A stretch of DNA of 64,000 nucleotides from Fodinisporobacter ferrooxydans (GTDB lineage: Bacteria > Bacillota > Bacilli > Tumebacillales > MYW30-H2). The DNA lies in assembly GCF_022818495.1 (NCBI RefSeq), contig NZ_CP089291.1:1909001-1973000 (forward strand), in the 5' to 3' direction. Positions 1,668 to 35,036 of the stretch are shown here, piece by piece. The notes under the pieces are model-generated. The model did no database searches and was not told the DNA's origin. It saw only the letters and a program-made list of their open reading frames with translations. The stretch's first letter is position 1, and each line of letters begins with the position of its first letter. The position numbers and the translations under genes are program-made.

Positions 1668-3872
1668 ATGGAACAGATTATTGAAACATGGGTTGTACAA
1701 TTTCAATACATTGGCATGTTTTTTATATTATCGCTTGGAATCGTCGGTCTTCCCCTACCTGATGAAATTCTGATAACATTTATTGGATATCAAGCATCGC
1801 TTGGAAAACTTTCATTACTCGTTTCATTTATGGTTACGTTCTTTGGTTCCGTTCTGGGGATTTGCGGCAGTTATGCATTAGGAGTAAAATATGGCCTTCC
1901 ATTGCTTCAAAAATATGGATCCAAATTCCGATTATCGGAAAGGAAAATCAAACAGACACAGCAGTTTTATATTCAATATGGTCCGTTTTTTGTAACTTTG
2001 GGTTACTTTATACCTGGTATACGTCAACTTGTTGGGTATTTGGCTGGAATTTCGAGGATCCGCTTTCGATCATTTCTTATTTTTGCATGTTTCGGTGGAT
2101 TTTTGTGGTGTGCTCTTTTCCTAGGGTTAGGGTATGTGTTAGGTGGAAATTGGGTAATCATTGGCCAAATGCTATCTTCATATGGGGGATATTTTAGTGT
2201 AGGTATCCTATTCTTATTTGTAGGAGGCTTTTTATATTGGAGAATGTTTAAGTTGCTGGGAGAAAAGGTGACAAATAAAGGGGCGAAATCAATAATGAAT
2301 TCCGGTATGCGCAAATTTTGGAAAGATATTTCAGATAATCCTCAGAAAACATACACGTATTCGACTATTTTTCTTTATATATATGTAACGGCGACTGGTG
2401 CATCCGTTATGGCACTGGAACTTGCCGCATCCAGATTTTTAGCTCCGTATTTTGGTACATCTATGATCGTTTGGGCGAATATTATTGGTCTGATTTTATT
2501 TTCTCTATCTTTGGGATATTTTATTGGCGGACATTTGGCTGACCGCCATCCAGATGGTCGTATTTTAATGTTGATAACACTTTCGGCAGGTGTTTGGTCG
2601 TCGGCACTACCTTTATGGGGGCACTTTATTTTCCGTTATTTATCGGCCGGGATTCTAGGAACACCTATTTTTACCATACTTATTTCATTTCTGGCAATCC
2701 TTCTTGTTTTTGCGCCACCTGTGTTTCTGTTGGCTATGGTAAGCCCTTTTGCGATTCGTCTTGTTGCTGTAGAACCACAGGTTGTGGGGAAAATATCCGG
2801 TAAATTATACGCCTTCTCGACACTTGGCAGTCTGGTTGGCACGTTTGGTACTGCATTTGGCACGATTCCGTTTTGGGGAACCCGGGAAACCTTATTTTTC
2901 TGGTCTGCGATTTTAATCGCAATCAGTGCATGGGGACTCCGCCACGTAAGGATGGGGAGATTTGTCTCATTATTTTTAATGGTTCCCGTGTTCTTTTATC
3001 TTTGGTTTCACGGTCCGGTAAAATCAGGGAAAGGTGTACTTTGGTCGAAAGATACCTTATATCAGTTTGCTCAAGTCATTCGTGAGCCGGATGGTTCGAC
3101 AACACTGGTATATAATGAAGGGGGTGGCATTCAATCCATTCGCCGTCCTCACGACGCTCTTTCCGCCACAGACTATTATGATGATTATCTGATTTTACCG
3201 TATCTCGTTTCCCGTCCTAAGGATATTCTTGTGCTTGGTTCTGCAGGCGGAACAATTCCTCGACTTTTGGCAAAATACGATAAACCGTTTTTTCCCCAGT
3301 TAAGTGTAACTGGTGTCGAGATAGATCCCGACATCATTCCATTGGATTACAAATATTTTGGTCTTAAACCAGAAGACGCGAAGATTGTCAATCAGGATGC
3401 CCGCGTATTTTTAAATCATACATCCAAACGTTATGATATCATTATTGTTGATGCATATTCACAACAAATTTATATTCCGTTTCACTTATCAACTGTCGAG
3501 TTTTTCCGAGATGTTCGTTCCAAATTACAACCTGATGGGATTGTTGCCCTGAATGTGAATGCAACAACACCAGATTCAAAGCTTCTTGTTTCGATGGAAA
3601 AAACGGTTCATACTGTCTTTCCTTACACGTATATACTAAAAGCCCGCGGCCTATACAACTATGTTTTACTGGGTTCTATGAATCCTCTGAATATCAATCA
3701 GCTTGGTAACATGAAAGTTTCCGGTTCGATCCAGCCTATTCTCGACGAATGGCAAAATTCTGTTACACAAATATCTGAGCAGCAAATGCGTAACGGGTTA
3801 GTTTTGACTGATAATCGAGCGCCCGTTGAAATGATGACGGATTCTATGATCTTTCAATTTGTACGTAAATGA
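1668..3872 (+). CDS. DedA-family membrane domain fused to membrane-bound spermidine-synthase-like protein
   Basis: A 734-residue two-part protein. Residues 1-205 match the DedA/VTT family (undecaprenyl-phosphate or phospholipid flippase-like), with the early LPLPDE motif and the G-x-R-PGIRQ-like segment (FIPGIRQLVGYLAG). Residues 230-440 form a second multi-helix membrane domain. Residues 480-734 are a spermidine-synthase-like Rossmann fold with the SAM-site motif VLGSAGGTIPR near residue 520, the acidic VEIDPD turn, and IIVDAYSQQIYIPFHLST. Membrane-spermidine-synthase proteins are known; an N-terminal DedA domain on one is unusual. The substrate is unknown and polyamine synthesis is not assured. 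It is transcribed alone between two terminators. Confidence 0.85.
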   Translation: MEQIIETWVVQFQYIGMFFILSLGIVGLPLPDEILITFIGYQASLGKLSLLVSFMVTFFGSVLGICGSYALGVKYGLPLLQKYGSKFRLSERKIKQTQQFYIQYGPFFVTLGYFIPGIRQLVGYLAGISRIRFRSFLIFACFGGFLWCALFLGLGYVLGGNWVIIGQMLSSYGGYFSVGILFLFVGGFLYWRMFKLLGEKVTNKGAKSIMNSGMRKFWKDISDNPQKTYTYSTIFLYIYVTATGASVMALELAASRFLAPYFGTSMIVWANIIGLILFSLSLGYFIGGHLADRHPDGRILMLITLSAGVWSSALPLWGHFIFRYLSAGILGTPIFTILISFLAILLVFAPPVFLLAMVSPFAIRLVAVEPQVVGKISGKLYAFSTLGSLVGTFGTAFGTIPFWGTRETLFFWSAILIAISAWGLRHVRMGRFVSLFLMVPVFFYLWFHGPVKSGKGVLWSKDTLYQFAQVIREPDGSTTLVYNEGGGIQSIRRPHDALSATDYYDDYLILPYLVSRPKDILVLGSAGGTIPRLLAKYDKPFFPQLSVTGVEIDPDIIPLDYKYFGLKPEDAKIVNQDARVFLNHTSKRYDIIIVDAYSQQIYIPFHLSTVEFFRDVRSKLQPDGIVALNVNATTPDSKLLVSMEKTVHTVFPYTYILKARGLYNYVLLGSMNPLNINQLGNMKVSGSIQPILDEWQNSVTQISEQQMRNGLVLTDNRAPVEMMTDSMIFQFVRK

Positions 3873-3979: not shown

Positions 3980-4528
3980 TTAAAACATTCGTTTGACGGC
4001 TGTCAGATGTTTATTCCAATAGGAACCAGGCGCGACTGATAAATATCCGACTTTTCCCAGACCGCCACCTTCTTCAATCATCCGATTGTTTCCAGCATAA
4101 ATTCCAGTGTGTCCACCATTATCAAAGATTAAGAGATCGCCAGGTTTCACTTGGCTCTTTGGAACGGGTTTCCCTACGCTGCTTGCTTGAACGCGACTGG
4201 CACCTGATATTTTGTAACCCAAAGCATGACGGTATACATAGGCGGTATAATTTGAGCAATCAAATCCGAATTGTCCACGGTCCTCGTTATGCCCCCAAAC
4301 ATATGGAGTGCCCAACTTGCTTTGCGCAACTTTCAAAACAGCAGCTTCTTTGGCTTGCTCGGATGCATTCCTTGATGCTAACGGGCGAATACTTGTATCC
4401 ATACGGACTCCTGATGGCAATGCACCATTCAAGCCTGTTGTAGTCGCTGCAAACGAACTATTTACCATTCCCGGCGCTAGGGTCAAAAGACCAAGTGATA
4501 CTACACTGATGACTGCTTTTTTCAACAT
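3980..4528 (-). CDS. Secreted NlpC/P60 cell-wall hydrolase
   Basis: A 182-residue precursor. Residues 1-28 are a signal peptide (MLKKAVISVVSLG...SSFAA). The NlpC/P60 domain fills the C-terminal half, with the catalytic Cys in FGFDCSNYT (about residue 91) and the catalytic His in GGHTGIYAG (about 138). It should cleave the D-Glu-diaminopimelate bond of peptidoglycan. The start at 4528 has GGGAG 9 bases upstream; a longer frame to 4618 would translate through the riboswitch. There is no SH3 or LysM domain, so wall targeting is minimal. Expression is probably controlled by the c-di-AMP riboswitch in its leader. Confidence 0.9.
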   Translation of the reverse strand: MLKKAVISVVSLGLLTLAPGMVNSSFAATTTGLNGALPSGVRMDTSIRPLASRNASEQAKEAAVLKVAQSKLGTPYVWGHNEDRGQFGFDCSNYTAYVYRHALGYKISGASRVQASSVGKPVPKSQVKPGDLLIFDNGGHTGIYAGNNRMIEEGGGLGKVGYLSVAPGSYWNKHLTAVKRMF

Positions 4529-4540
4529 AAAAATCCACTC

Positions 4541-4675
4541 CCTTTTACCTTCGAGGTTAGTTGTCGGATTCGGATGATGGATCACCCTACGTACGATGTA
4601 CGATTCACCCCAAGCCATTCACATGGCAAAAAAATCCCCCGTACCAGATTACCTGTCTGGATTCGGCATGTATGG
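4541..4675 (-). promoter_or_regulatory. c-di-AMP riboswitch (ydaO/yuaA motif)
   Basis: On the minus strand the leader shows the conserved ydaO blocks in order: GCCGAATCC, GGTACGGGGGA, TTGGGGTGAATC, GTAGGG, and CCGAATCCGACAACTAACC followed by TCGAAGG. The element ends about 13 bases before the start codon of the NlpC/P60 gene. Members of this class turn off wall-hydrolase and potassium-transport genes when c-di-AMP is bound. The edges are estimated. Confidence 0.88.
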
Positions 4676-4676
4676 A

Positions 4677-4685
4677 AGTATACCA
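4677..4685 (-). promoter_or_regulatory. Extended -10 promoter of the riboswitch transcript
   Basis: TGG-TATACT on the minus strand is a TGn extended -10, about 7 bases before the first riboswitch block. No good -35 is visible. Confidence 0.5.
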
Positions 4686-30955: not shown

Positions 30956-31303
30956 CTAACTTTTTAATTTATAGCCACAATTCGGGCAAAATGCGGCATT
31001 TGCCGGCACTTTTTCCCGGCATTGGGGACACGTGGACGGAGTTGTTTCCAGCTTGGTGCCGCATTGAAAACAAAATCGATTCGACATTGCATTTTCTGTT
31101 GAACAATTTGGACAAACAATACCAGGATTACGTAGTGGAGCTTGATTGGGAGGTGGAGTAGGGACATATCTGGGATCCCGCTCATAATACTCACGATCAT
31201 AATGATGATCATGATGACCTCCATGATGACCACCGTGATGCCCTCCTCCGTGGTGTCCTCCATGATGCCCTCCGCCAAATAACTCTCTAAAAAAATCTGA
31301 CAT
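30956..31303 (-). CDS. His-rich protein with double zinc ribbon
   Basis: 115 residues. It opens MSDFFRELFGGGHHGGHHGG and has about 15 His in the first 35 residues. Residues 63-115 form two zinc ribbons (CPNCSTENAMSNRFCFQCG and CPQCREKVPANAAFCPNCG). No signal peptide. The beginning matches the His-repeat protein at 13597, so both may share a membrane- or partner-binding N-terminal tag. It lies between the YIEGIA pair and the zinc/cadmium efflux operon, so a role in metal buffering is plausible. Confidence 0.75.
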   Translation of the reverse strand: MSDFFRELFGGGHHGGHHGGGHHGGHHGGHHDHHYDREYYERDPRYVPTPPPNQAPLRNPGIVCPNCSTENAMSNRFCFQCGTKLETTPSTCPQCREKVPANAAFCPNCGYKLKS

Positions 31304-31389: not shown

Positions 31390-34300
31390 TTATTCATGGT
31401 GATGTTCCGGTTCCTGATCGCAACAAAGGATGGCATCTTTATGCGGGTGACCGTCATCTTCTGTTTGAATGGTTGCATGGCTAATGCCCAAATGGATAAG
31501 ATTATGTTCAATTTCCCGGATAATCGATTGACTCTGGCGAATGGACATACTTCCATCAAGCACTACATGACAAGATAAAGCGTTCTTTCCGCTGGTTATG
31601 CTCCATGCATGCAGGTCGTGTACATCATATACGCCCTTGATCGATCGGATTGCTTGCACGATATCCGGAATGGAAATCCCGCTTGGTGTTCCTTCCATGA
31701 GAATACCAATGGTTTGTTTCAAAATCTTCCATGCGCCAAACGCAATGAGTACGGCGATCAAGAAACTGAGGATGGGATCGACTGCATACCAGCCTGTCGT
31801 TGCAATAATGATGCCGCCAATAATAACGCCCGCGGATGCGGCCGCATCACCCAGCATGTGCAAGACTGCGCTTTTGACATTAATGTTTTCCTCTTTGCTG
31901 AGCCCCAATCCAAGATATAGATTCATAACGAGCCCGACTCCGGCGCTGATAAACATCCAAGTGCTGCTCACAGGTTCCGGAGATTGCAACCGTTTGTATG
32001 CTTCCCATCCGATGACCAAGGCAATGACAATTAACGACAAAGCATTAATAAAAGCAGCCAAAATCCCCGACCGGTGATATCCGTATGTCATTGCTTCGTT
32101 TGGAGGCTTCATCGCTTGCTTCATGGCATACCATGACAAGCCGATCGCCGCAATATCTGTCAAAACGTGTCCGGCATCGGAAAGCAGCGCCAAGCTGTGG
32201 GAAATATAACTTCCGATCAATTCAACAACAAGGATCACAAGGGTTAGAAAAAAAGCAATTTTCATTTTGCCAATCGGGGCATGAGAATGGAAAACCCCAC
32301 TGTGGTCATGATCATGTCCATGATCGTTTGTATGTGAGTGTGTTGTAGCCATCGAATCTCTCCTTTTCAAAGGATCAAAGATCTTTTTACAATTCAACAT
32401 GTAAGACCGGGATCGCAGCAAGCGCAAGCCGTTTAACGTGACGAGCAGTGTTGCTCCCATATCTGTTAGAATTGCAAACCAAAGTGTCAGCCAGCCTGGG
32501 AATACCAGCAATACGGCAATGGTCTTCAGTGCCAAAGCCAAGAAAATATTTTGTTTGATAATGCCAAGTGTCCGTCTGCCTAATGCAACGGCATAAGGTA
32601 TCCTGGATACATCGTCCGACATCAATGCGACGTCTGCAGTTTCCAGCGCAACGTCCGTTCCCGCTTTCCCCATGGAGATCCCGACAGTGGCGGCTGCGAG
32701 TGCCGGAGCGTCATTGATCCCATCGCCGACCATTGCCACCTTTTTTTGTGTTTGCAGCAACTTCTTCAGTTTTTCCAGCTTCTGTTCCGGAAGCATTTCT
32801 CCGTAATACTCCCGAATGCCTACACGTTCCGCAATGGCACGGGCCGTTTGCTGTGTGTCGCCGGATAACATGACGATCTGTTGAATGCCTAAATGATGCA
32901 GCGCTTGAATTGCAGCGGCGCTTTGTTCACGTACCTGGTCCGAGACAGCGATCCAGCCAAGAATCTCGTATTCATCCCCCAGCAGTATCAAGGTTTGGCC
33001 TTGTGCCTGGATCCGGTTGATTTCCTCCTGAACGGTCGACCAATCGATATGCAGGTCATGGAACAAACGGACATTGCCGATATAATAGGTTTTGCCGTCG
33101 ATCCTGCCAGATGCGCCTTTGCCGACAAGGATTTGCATGGTTTCCGCCATTTGCGGGGAACTGACACCCATGGCATCCGCTTTGGCGAGAATCGCGCCGG
33201 CAAGCGGGTGTTCCGAACCTCTTTCCAGCATTGCGGCAAGTGTAAGGATCTCCAGCTTCGAACGTGAGCTTGTGGTATCCCAATCCATGACAACAGGTTT
33301 GCCTTTTGTCAAAGTTCCGGTCTTGTCAAAGGCAATTCCTTTTAATTTCCCCAGTTCCTCCAGATATAAGCCGCCTTTGATCAGAACTCCGTTGCGTGCA
33401 GCCGAGCCGATTCCGGTAACGATCGCGACCGGTGTCGAGATGACGAGTGCACAAGGACAAGCGACGACGAGCAATGCCAAGGCTTCGTATATCCAATGTT
33501 TCCAATCCCCATGAAAGAAGAGGGGAGGAACAAAGGCAGTCATCAATGCCAAGCTCATGACAATCGGCGTGTAATGTTTGGCAAAACGGTCGACAAATGT
33601 TTGGGAAGGAGCCTTTTGGTTTTGTGCCTCTTCCACCAAATGGGTGATTTTTGCCAATGTAGTATCCTGTGCAAGAGCTGTGGCACGCATGCGAATGGTA
33701 CCTGTTTGATTCAAGGTTCCCGCATAAACCGCATCGCCCGCCTGCTTTTCGACAGGCATCGATTCGCCTGTAATCGCCGCTTCGTTGATAGTGGTGGCAC
33801 CTGCCATGATTTCGCCATCGATTGCCAGTTTCTCCCCGGGTTTGACGAGCAGTTCATCTCCGATCGCCAGTTGTTCAACAGGCAGCCGAACTTCACGCCC
33901 GCCGCGAATCACGATGGCTTCTTTTGGCGCAAGATCCATTAACGTCCGGATCGAGGAGCGGGCTTTCTCCATGGAATACGACTCCAGCATTTCACTCACG
34001 GAAAACAGGAAGGCTACGGTTGCTGCCTCTTTCCACTGGCCGATGAACAGTGCGCCAATGACAGCAACTGTCATTAATACGTTCATGTCAAAATCAAGGC
34101 GCATAACATTTCGCAAACCTTTTTTCGCGACCGAATATCCGCCAAGAAGGATGGAAAGAAGCAGAAAGAGCCGTCCCGATGCGAATGACCCAAATCCCCA
34201 TCCCAACAGCAGACATACGAGAGACAAACCGGTTGTCCAAACCTTTTGTGAACGATACCAGGGAAGCTGTATCAAAGATTGGGCAGAACCCTCTTCAGCG

Positions 34301-34503
34301 AAGGAAACCTGTTCGACTTTTCTCGCTTCTTTTTCCAATTGATCTTTGGAAAGCGTACCGATGACCATTAATTTGGCTGTGGCAAAATGTAAAGATACTT
34401 CTGTCAGTTCAGGCAACGCCTGAAGATGCCGCTCAATTTTGGCGGCGCAACCTGCTCAGGTCATGCCTGTTATATGATAGACCGATTTTTTTTCCGCAGT
34501 CAT
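31390..34503 (-). CDS. CadA-like P1B ATPase fused to CzcD-like CDF exporter, with TGA at codon 16
   Basis: From ATG 34503 the frame reads MTAEKKSVYHITGMT, then TGA at 34458-34456, then AGCAAKIERHLQALPEL; read through, it is 1037 residues. The first 45 residues are an HMA domain with TGA where the first Cys of GMTCAGC belongs. Next is a Zn/Cd/Pb-type ATPase with VVACPCALVISTP, FDKTGTLTKG and GDGINDAPAL. From residue 718 (MATTHSHTNDHGHDHDH) a complete CDF exporter of 320 residues follows in the same frame. A strong AAAAGGAGAG site lies 5 bases before that Met, so the second half can also be made alone. The upstream ArsR gene ends 21 bases before the ATG. Confidence 0.8.
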
Positions 34504-34524: not shown

Positions 34525-34941
34525 CTACTCCTCATCCCATTCGCAATGTCCACAATCATCCGTATTTTCCTGCAGATGGAGAGCTTCCTGAATCAAATGC
34601 CGGATGTGCGGGCTTTGCAAGCTGTAAAACACCATTTTTCCTTCCCGCCGATATTTGGCCAGTCCCATATTTTTTAGCAGACGCAGATGATGGGAAGCGG
34701 TAGCGTTCGACGAGTCGATAATCGTAGCCACATCACATACACAAAGTTCGTTTTCTTTGCTTAGTGCGTATACGATGCGCAACCGAGTTTCATCCGCCAA
34801 GGCCTTGAATAAGGGAACGATCCGATCTGTTCGATTCATTTCGGTTTGGCGGCGTTGGACTTTTTCCGGATCATACATGAAGATATCGCACGTATCGTTA
34901 CAGTCTTGCTGTTTTGGAAGATCATGTTTATCGAAAGCCAA
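34525..34941 (-). CDS. CadC/SmtB-type ArsR-family metal repressor
   Basis: 138 residues from a TTG start (AGGGGG 8 bases upstream). The winged helix (45-110) has ELCVCDVATII, with the Cys pair used by CadC, and the recognition helix SSNATASHHLRLLK. An N-terminal QDCNDTCDIF supplies further Cys ligands as in CadC, and the tail ends DDCGHCEWDEE. It should release DNA on binding Cd, Pb or Zn. It is the first gene of the operon with the ATPase-CDF fusion. Confidence 0.9.
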   Translation of the reverse strand: MAFDKHDLPKQQDCNDTCDIFMYDPEKVQRRQTEMNRTDRIVPLFKALADETRLRIVYALSKENELCVCDVATIIDSSNATASHHLRLLKNMGLAKYRREGKMVFYSLQSPHIRHLIQEALHLQENTDDCGHCEWDEE

Positions 34942-34995: not shown

Positions 34996-35036
34996 AGTAT
35001 AAAAATATTCATCATTAAAATCAAATGTTCATTTGA
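34996..35036 (-). promoter_or_regulatory. Promoter and operator of the cadmium/zinc operon
   Basis: On the minus strand TTGATT (35024-35019), 17 bases, TATACT (35001-34996). An inverted repeat TCAAAT-GTTC-ATTTGA at 35021-35036 overlaps the -35 and resembles CadC operators. Confidence 0.75.

Follow-up and report, generated by a model that had tools for sequence, protein, structure and literature searches.

A heavy-metal P-type ATPase with a predicted selenocysteine, joined in frame to a CDF exporter in Fodinisporobacter ferrooxydans

The 64,000-nucleotide stretch of the Fodinisporobacter ferrooxydans MYW30-H2 genome that we analysed (hereafter the window) carries on its minus strand a Zn/Cd-type P-type ATPase whose reading frame runs into that of a CDF exporter, and whose codon 16 is an in-frame UGA. 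We consider it probable that this locus encodes a selenium-dependent ATPase-CDF fusion and, from an internal ribosome site, a free CDF, both within a CadC-type operon. An earlier note on this DNA had described a single open frame from 34503 to 31390. The junction between the two exporters is without a stop, as that note stated, but the frame is interrupted by the TGA at codon 16, which went unmentioned. There are strong grounds for reading this codon as selenocysteine, which makes the ATPase part a predicted selenoprotein, so that any fused product would depend on selenium. The features of the locus are as follows.

35021..35036, palindromic: TCAAATGTTCATTTGA, likely operator for an ArsR/CadC-type repressor, a function predicted from its context
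34525..34941, minus strand: ArsR/SmtB-family regulator with a CadC-like CVC motif (PF01022, 56 bits)
31390..34503, minus strand: fused frame of Sec-ATPase, linker and CDF, whose product has 1037 residues if the UGA is decoded as Sec
34456..34458, minus strand: TGA at codon 16, in frame and most likely coding for selenocysteine; first Cys position of the HMA motif, GMT-U-AGC (UxxC)
34408..34448, minus strand: pair of hairpins following the UGA, with a candidate SECIS in the second of them (34424-34408), from folding, pairing in homologues and resampling
32353..32403, minus strand: linker codons 701-717, of which the first (32403-32401) reads TAC, against TAA in the second copy
32358..32367, minus strand: internal Shine-Dalgarno sequence AAAAGGAGAG
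31390..32352, minus strand: CDF exporter with its own ATG at 32352 (TIGR01297, PF01545, PF16916)
30956..31303, minus strand: double zinc-ribbon protein rich in His and Gly, encoded downstream of the CDF (PF13240, PF12773)

The fused frame and its operon

The frame opens at ATG 34503, with a strong Shine-Dalgarno sequence, TAGGAGG, upstream, and ends at TAA 31392-31390. Residues 1-699 form the ATPase and residues 718-1037 the CDF, with no stop between them on the minus strand. Pfam and NCBIfam profiles place an HMA domain at residues 9-65, the heavy-metal P-type ATPase as far as residue 699 and the CDF at approximately 746-1017. The ATPase part passes both the heavy-metal P-type ATPase model TIGR01525 (632 bits, cut-off 346) and the cadmium model TIGR01512 (544 bits, cut-off 313.5). 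It scores below the curated cut-offs of the narrow ZntA equivalog models (644 of 1005 bits for PRK11033 and 572 of 1240 bits for P_type_ZntA), and we therefore class it as ZntA/CadA-like and not as ZntA. The CDF part reaches 275 bits against TIGR01297, where the cut-off is 82 bits. These profile matches bear out the pairing of a Zn/Cd-type ATPase with a CDF proposed in the earlier note.

The translated ATPase contains VVACPCALV (the CPC motif), DKTGTLT, GDGINDAP and LTDMGATLL (the DMGAT motif of TM8). It resembles the ZntA/CadA Zn/Cd/Pb P1B-ATPases in its HMA domain, in the CPC, DKTGT, SEHP and DMGAT motifs and in the ArsR/CadC-type regulator upstream, and the closest solved structure is that of ZntA (4umv). 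Unlike these pumps, the first cysteine position of the HMA motif is encoded by UGA and the C-terminus is extended into the CDF. The second half is similar to the ZitB/CzcD-like zinc exporters, with Cation_efflux and ZT_dimer domains, a His-rich N-terminus, HVLTD and HMLGD motifs and a ribosome site of its own; in contrast to the usual CDF exporter, which is a separate gene following an ArsR regulator, it lies in frame with the ATPase. The motifs of both parts are intact throughout, which leaves either half of the fusion potentially functional. The C-terminus of the ATPase family and the N-terminus of the CDF family are both cytoplasmic, and the join is thus topologically possible. AlphaFold gave only a poor model for the fusion (mean pLDDT 63, pTM 0.41); with the UGA read through, it predicts an N-terminal beta-alpha-beta-beta-alpha-beta HMA fold and a disordered linker, the linker region having the sequence SYMLNCKKIFDPLKRRDS.

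The palindrome is perfect and is the only match in the window, where 0.03 would be expected; it recurs at related ATPase loci. In most relatives the ATPase gene is immediately preceded by a homologue of the regulator. The zinc-ribbon protein is small, contains GGHHGG repeats and is possibly a zinc buffer. The locus is most likely a CadC-type heavy-metal resistance operon.

A second copy and the origin of the join

A second copy of the regulator and ATPase is present in the same genome at C1:153388-155541, about 1.79 Mb away. The two copies are 98.8% identical across 2661 bases, with a stretch of about 1.8 kb (34844-33045) in which there is no difference at all. The differences are concentrated at the 3' end of the ATPase gene, where 7 of the last 61 bases near the junction differ. 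This pattern points to a recent duplication or gene conversion, and the long stretch without any difference suggests that gene conversion has acted recently. The part of the window from 14181 to 35044 is itself largely repeated, inverted, at C1:152847-167051, with approximately 95-99% identity and gaps. We also considered a plasmid origin for the locus and set it aside, as a near match was not found.

In the second copy codon 701 is TAA, where the fused gene has TAC, and the ATPase is unfused; the ATPases of relatives terminate at about this position, a few codons at most from the TAA. The proposal of the earlier note that the fusion arose through loss of the ATPase stop codon is therefore well supported. 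A point mutation cannot have been the whole event, because the CDF sits in a 1.4-kb segment, bearing the CDF and zinc-ribbon genes, that is missing from the second copy. Where relatives of the CDF stand alone, an ArsR gene precedes them, and at three loci (L092, L093 and L094) a related zinc-ribbon gene comes next, which suggests that the segment probably moved in as one unit. Alternatively, it is possible that the CDF and zinc-ribbon genes were deleted from the second copy.

A query spanning the junction found no second genome with the fusion in either a class-wide or a phylum-wide sample of 398 genomes each, the two samples partly overlapping. The view that such a fusion is unusual is upheld by this search, which the earlier note had itself proposed: within these samples the fusion is seen in one gene of a single genome, and no conservation across species was found. 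A search of the open-access literature for P-type ATPase-CDF fusions also returned nothing relevant among the results listed. Four plasmid ATPase-CDF loci from Nostoc, Hymenobacter and Halarchaeum have the same gene order, but in these the stop is present and the proteins are separate. In Nostoc the two genes are in the same frame and only one codon apart after the stop. The plasmid alignments that span the junction there were thus rejected as fusions, and the in-frame, unfused pairs indicate that the evolutionary step to a fusion is short.

Two further candidates were rejected. A match over query residues 9-1030 in the metagenome-assembled genome Bacillota DeMMO6_24 (L053) comes from a CDF with a gene of its own, located upstream of a Sec-ATPase; the order at L053 1303-4790 is regulator, CDF and then Sec-ATPase, with a UGA at the equivalent codon, just upstream of the ATPase open frame. 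A match in Methylocystis is annotated as a different protein beside a CDF gene. On this Methylocystis rosea plasmid (L113, 154-3363) a 1069-residue protein annotated as a tetratricopeptide repeat protein overlaps the alignment to the ATPase C-terminus and adjoins the CDF, and may be either another ATPase fusion or a chance match.

By our estimate, loss of the stop would leave an open, in-frame linker of 16 codons by luck in about 1/7 of cases (1/3 x ~0.46), and the join alone is therefore weak evidence of selection. Given one gene in one genome and a linker that could fairly readily arise by chance, the fusion may have no function of its own. The locus would then hold an ordinary predicted Sec-ATPase with a recent and nearly neutral accident at its end, the free CDF from its own start being the working exporter and the fusion, though made to some extent, having no special role. 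The strong internal ribosome site and the near-identical unfused ATPase elsewhere in the genome fit this account, and the intact motifs of ATPase and CDF, with which both halves could work, speak indirectly against it. We put it at an even chance, and the odds that the fusion is merely tolerated are likewise about even.

It is improbable that the junction is an assembly or sequencing error, in which the true codon would be TAA, or a mix-up of two near-identical copies. The TAA at codon 701 of the second copy and the 1.8 kb of identity make such a confusion conceivable, but the copies differ at many positions near the junction beyond the stop codon itself, and the sequences downstream differ as well, so that reads from the two copies can be told apart. 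Furthermore, the genome was assembled as one contig, of 4,856,687 bases. The genome coverage is 329x, and the strain came from a polymetallic mine (PMC11123200).

Codon 16 and the selenium machinery

Because codon 16 is TGA, there is no stop-free standard-code ORF from 34503, and the ORF begins only at TTG 34416. This TTG lacks a good ribosome site, and a start there would cut away the beginning of the HMA domain; when every in-frame start was scanned, no good site was found just downstream of the UGA either. The UGA aside, there is no inactivating change across 1037 codons, and both copies of the ATPase gene in the genome retain the UGA.

Among homologues of the ATPase, 27 distinct sequences have TGA at the codon equivalent to codon 16 and the remainder have TGT or TGC. 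SelA is present in all 26 of the TGA-coded genomes as against 85 of 398 in the class-wide sample overall (hypergeometric p 1e-19), and in 10 of the 29 genomes that have Cys and no TGA at this codon, a count tallied by hand (Fisher p 7e-8). Relatedness of the genomes makes both p-values optimistic; the repeated swaps between Sec and Cys are, however, separate events. On a maximum-likelihood tree built with the codon-16 column masked there are at least 10 such switches, 8 of them forced by well-supported branches. One apparent exception, a genome with TGA and without SelA (G094), was rejected: its Cys codon is TGT and the TGA sits elsewhere. The recurrence of TGA at exactly the Cys codon in so many relatives is far beyond chance.

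The host genome contains the machinery that decoding would require. SelA scores 525 bits, SelB is above its cut-off and a tRNA-Sec was identified by two methods. A Sec-type selD adjoins selA and needs its own UGA, in AGUGCK, to be read through.

We identified a candidate SECIS in the second of the two hairpins that follow codon 16. It has 7 pairs and a GUU loop, at a spacing of 38 nt from the UGA, or 37 nt to the closing base of the loop. The published bacterial SECIS model has a spacing of 16-37 nt, a loop of 3-9 nt with a G in the first two positions and an energy of -7.5 kcal/mol or lower (PMC13188914). Our hairpin is borderline by this model, its spacing being at the edge of the range. Synonymous-codon resampling gave an equally good stem in 0.35% of trials (p 0.0035) and an equally low energy in 1.5%. 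Most UGA homologues have a hairpin soon after the UGA; in the larger group a GUU loop lies 17 nt downstream, and the group to which this ATPase belongs has two hairpins. The hairpin is mostly absent from the Cys homologues (pairing score, p 5e-8), and the Cys sequences that retain it are close relatives of UGA sequences. Six UGA homologues (L040, L102, L104 and L107-L109) are without the common hairpin, and approximately 8% of the hairpins in the Sec genomes deviate in form.

From these comparisons codon 16 most likely encodes selenocysteine. The reading of UGA as a true stop, as in the standard code, which would leave a decaying pseudogene or an ATPase begun at the available TTG without its HMA motif, is very improbable and was rejected on the co-occurrence with SelA, the alignment of the UGA with Cys codons, its retention in both copies of an otherwise undamaged gene and the ribosome-site scan.

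This ATPase is not the first of its kind. A UxxC E1-E2 ATPase appears in earlier surveys as a predicted selenoprotein (PMC2398784), counted as 32 proteins in 25 organisms (PMC5029168). A further source gives the UxxC motif and TIGR01525 for the family and credits it to a 2007 paper (PMC13188914). The ATPase described here likewise matches TIGR01525, has a predicted UxxC motif with the UGA aligned to the Cys of homologues, and comes from a host with Sec-decoding machinery. It differs in that its frame runs into a CDF with an internal start, a fusion that goes unmentioned for the family in the available parts of these sources. The ATPase half is a new member of a known family of predicted selenoproteins, and as far as the open-access literature shows the locus is set apart by the CDF fusion, by its two starts and by an unfused copy that is nearly identical. 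Searches of the open-access literature for selenocysteine in CadA, P1B or HMA domains returned nothing relevant among the results listed, and no functional study of a heavy-metal pump with selenocysteine in its metal-binding motif was found there. A residue of this kind in that position had been listed in selenoproteome surveys, and the present locus adds the fusion to a second exporter. Such ATPases will be missed or called too short by gene callers for which UGA is a stop.

The internal start and the predicted products

The internal Shine-Dalgarno sequence lies exactly 5 bases upstream of the in-frame ATG at 32352, as the earlier note had reported. We scanned all in-frame ATG, GTG and TTG codons for pairing with the anti-Shine-Dalgarno sequence, and the best two were M1 (-10.2 kcal/mol) and M718 (-8.7 kcal/mol), the starts of the fused frame and of the CDF. 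Standalone relatives of the CDF have the same kind of ribosome site in the same position. The possibility that a free CDF is made from the internal site gains support from both findings.

The frame with its UGA, the lost stop, the internal ribosome site, the Sec machinery and the Sec/Cys pairing are seen in the sequence; which proteins are made, in what ratio, and what selenocysteine and the fusion do are predictions built on it. Metal would release the CadC-like repressor, as expected from its family. Ribosomes starting at 34503 would decode the UGA at codon 16 as Sec through the SECIS hairpin, SelB and tRNA-Sec, and those that pass it would run through the ATPase, linker and CDF to give the 1037-residue fusion. 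Synthesis of the free CDF, by a second set of ribosomes starting at the CDF's own site, would need no selenium; under selenium shortage the free CDF would stay, and levels of ATPase and fusion would fall. Within the UxxC motif, Sec would be a softer metal ligand that ionises more readily, or else a redox-sensitive ligand that serves as a switch; with its low pKa and soft donor atom it would be expected to bind soft metals more tightly than Cys.

A more elaborate reading is a selenium-gated double exporter, in which the fusion is made only with Sec decoding and the free CDF is constant. The proportion of the two pumps would then follow selenium status, perhaps together with damage that soft metals do to selenoprotein synthesis, and the tethered CDF would cooperate with the ATPase. 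We regard this as unlikely. Closely related Sec and Cys pumps, with at least 8 swaps between them, offer a direct way to ask what advantage selenium brings as a metal ligand. For the fusion, a built-in control is at hand in the unfused and almost identical copy that this genome also carries.

Two other features were seen elsewhere in the window. A 734-residue ORF on the plus strand (1668-3872) combines a DedA-type VTT membrane domain with a spermine/spermidine synthase-like domain. On the minus strand, a c-di-AMP riboswitch (4531-4678, 76.5 bits) precedes and overlaps an NlpC/P60 hydrolase ORF at 3980-4618.
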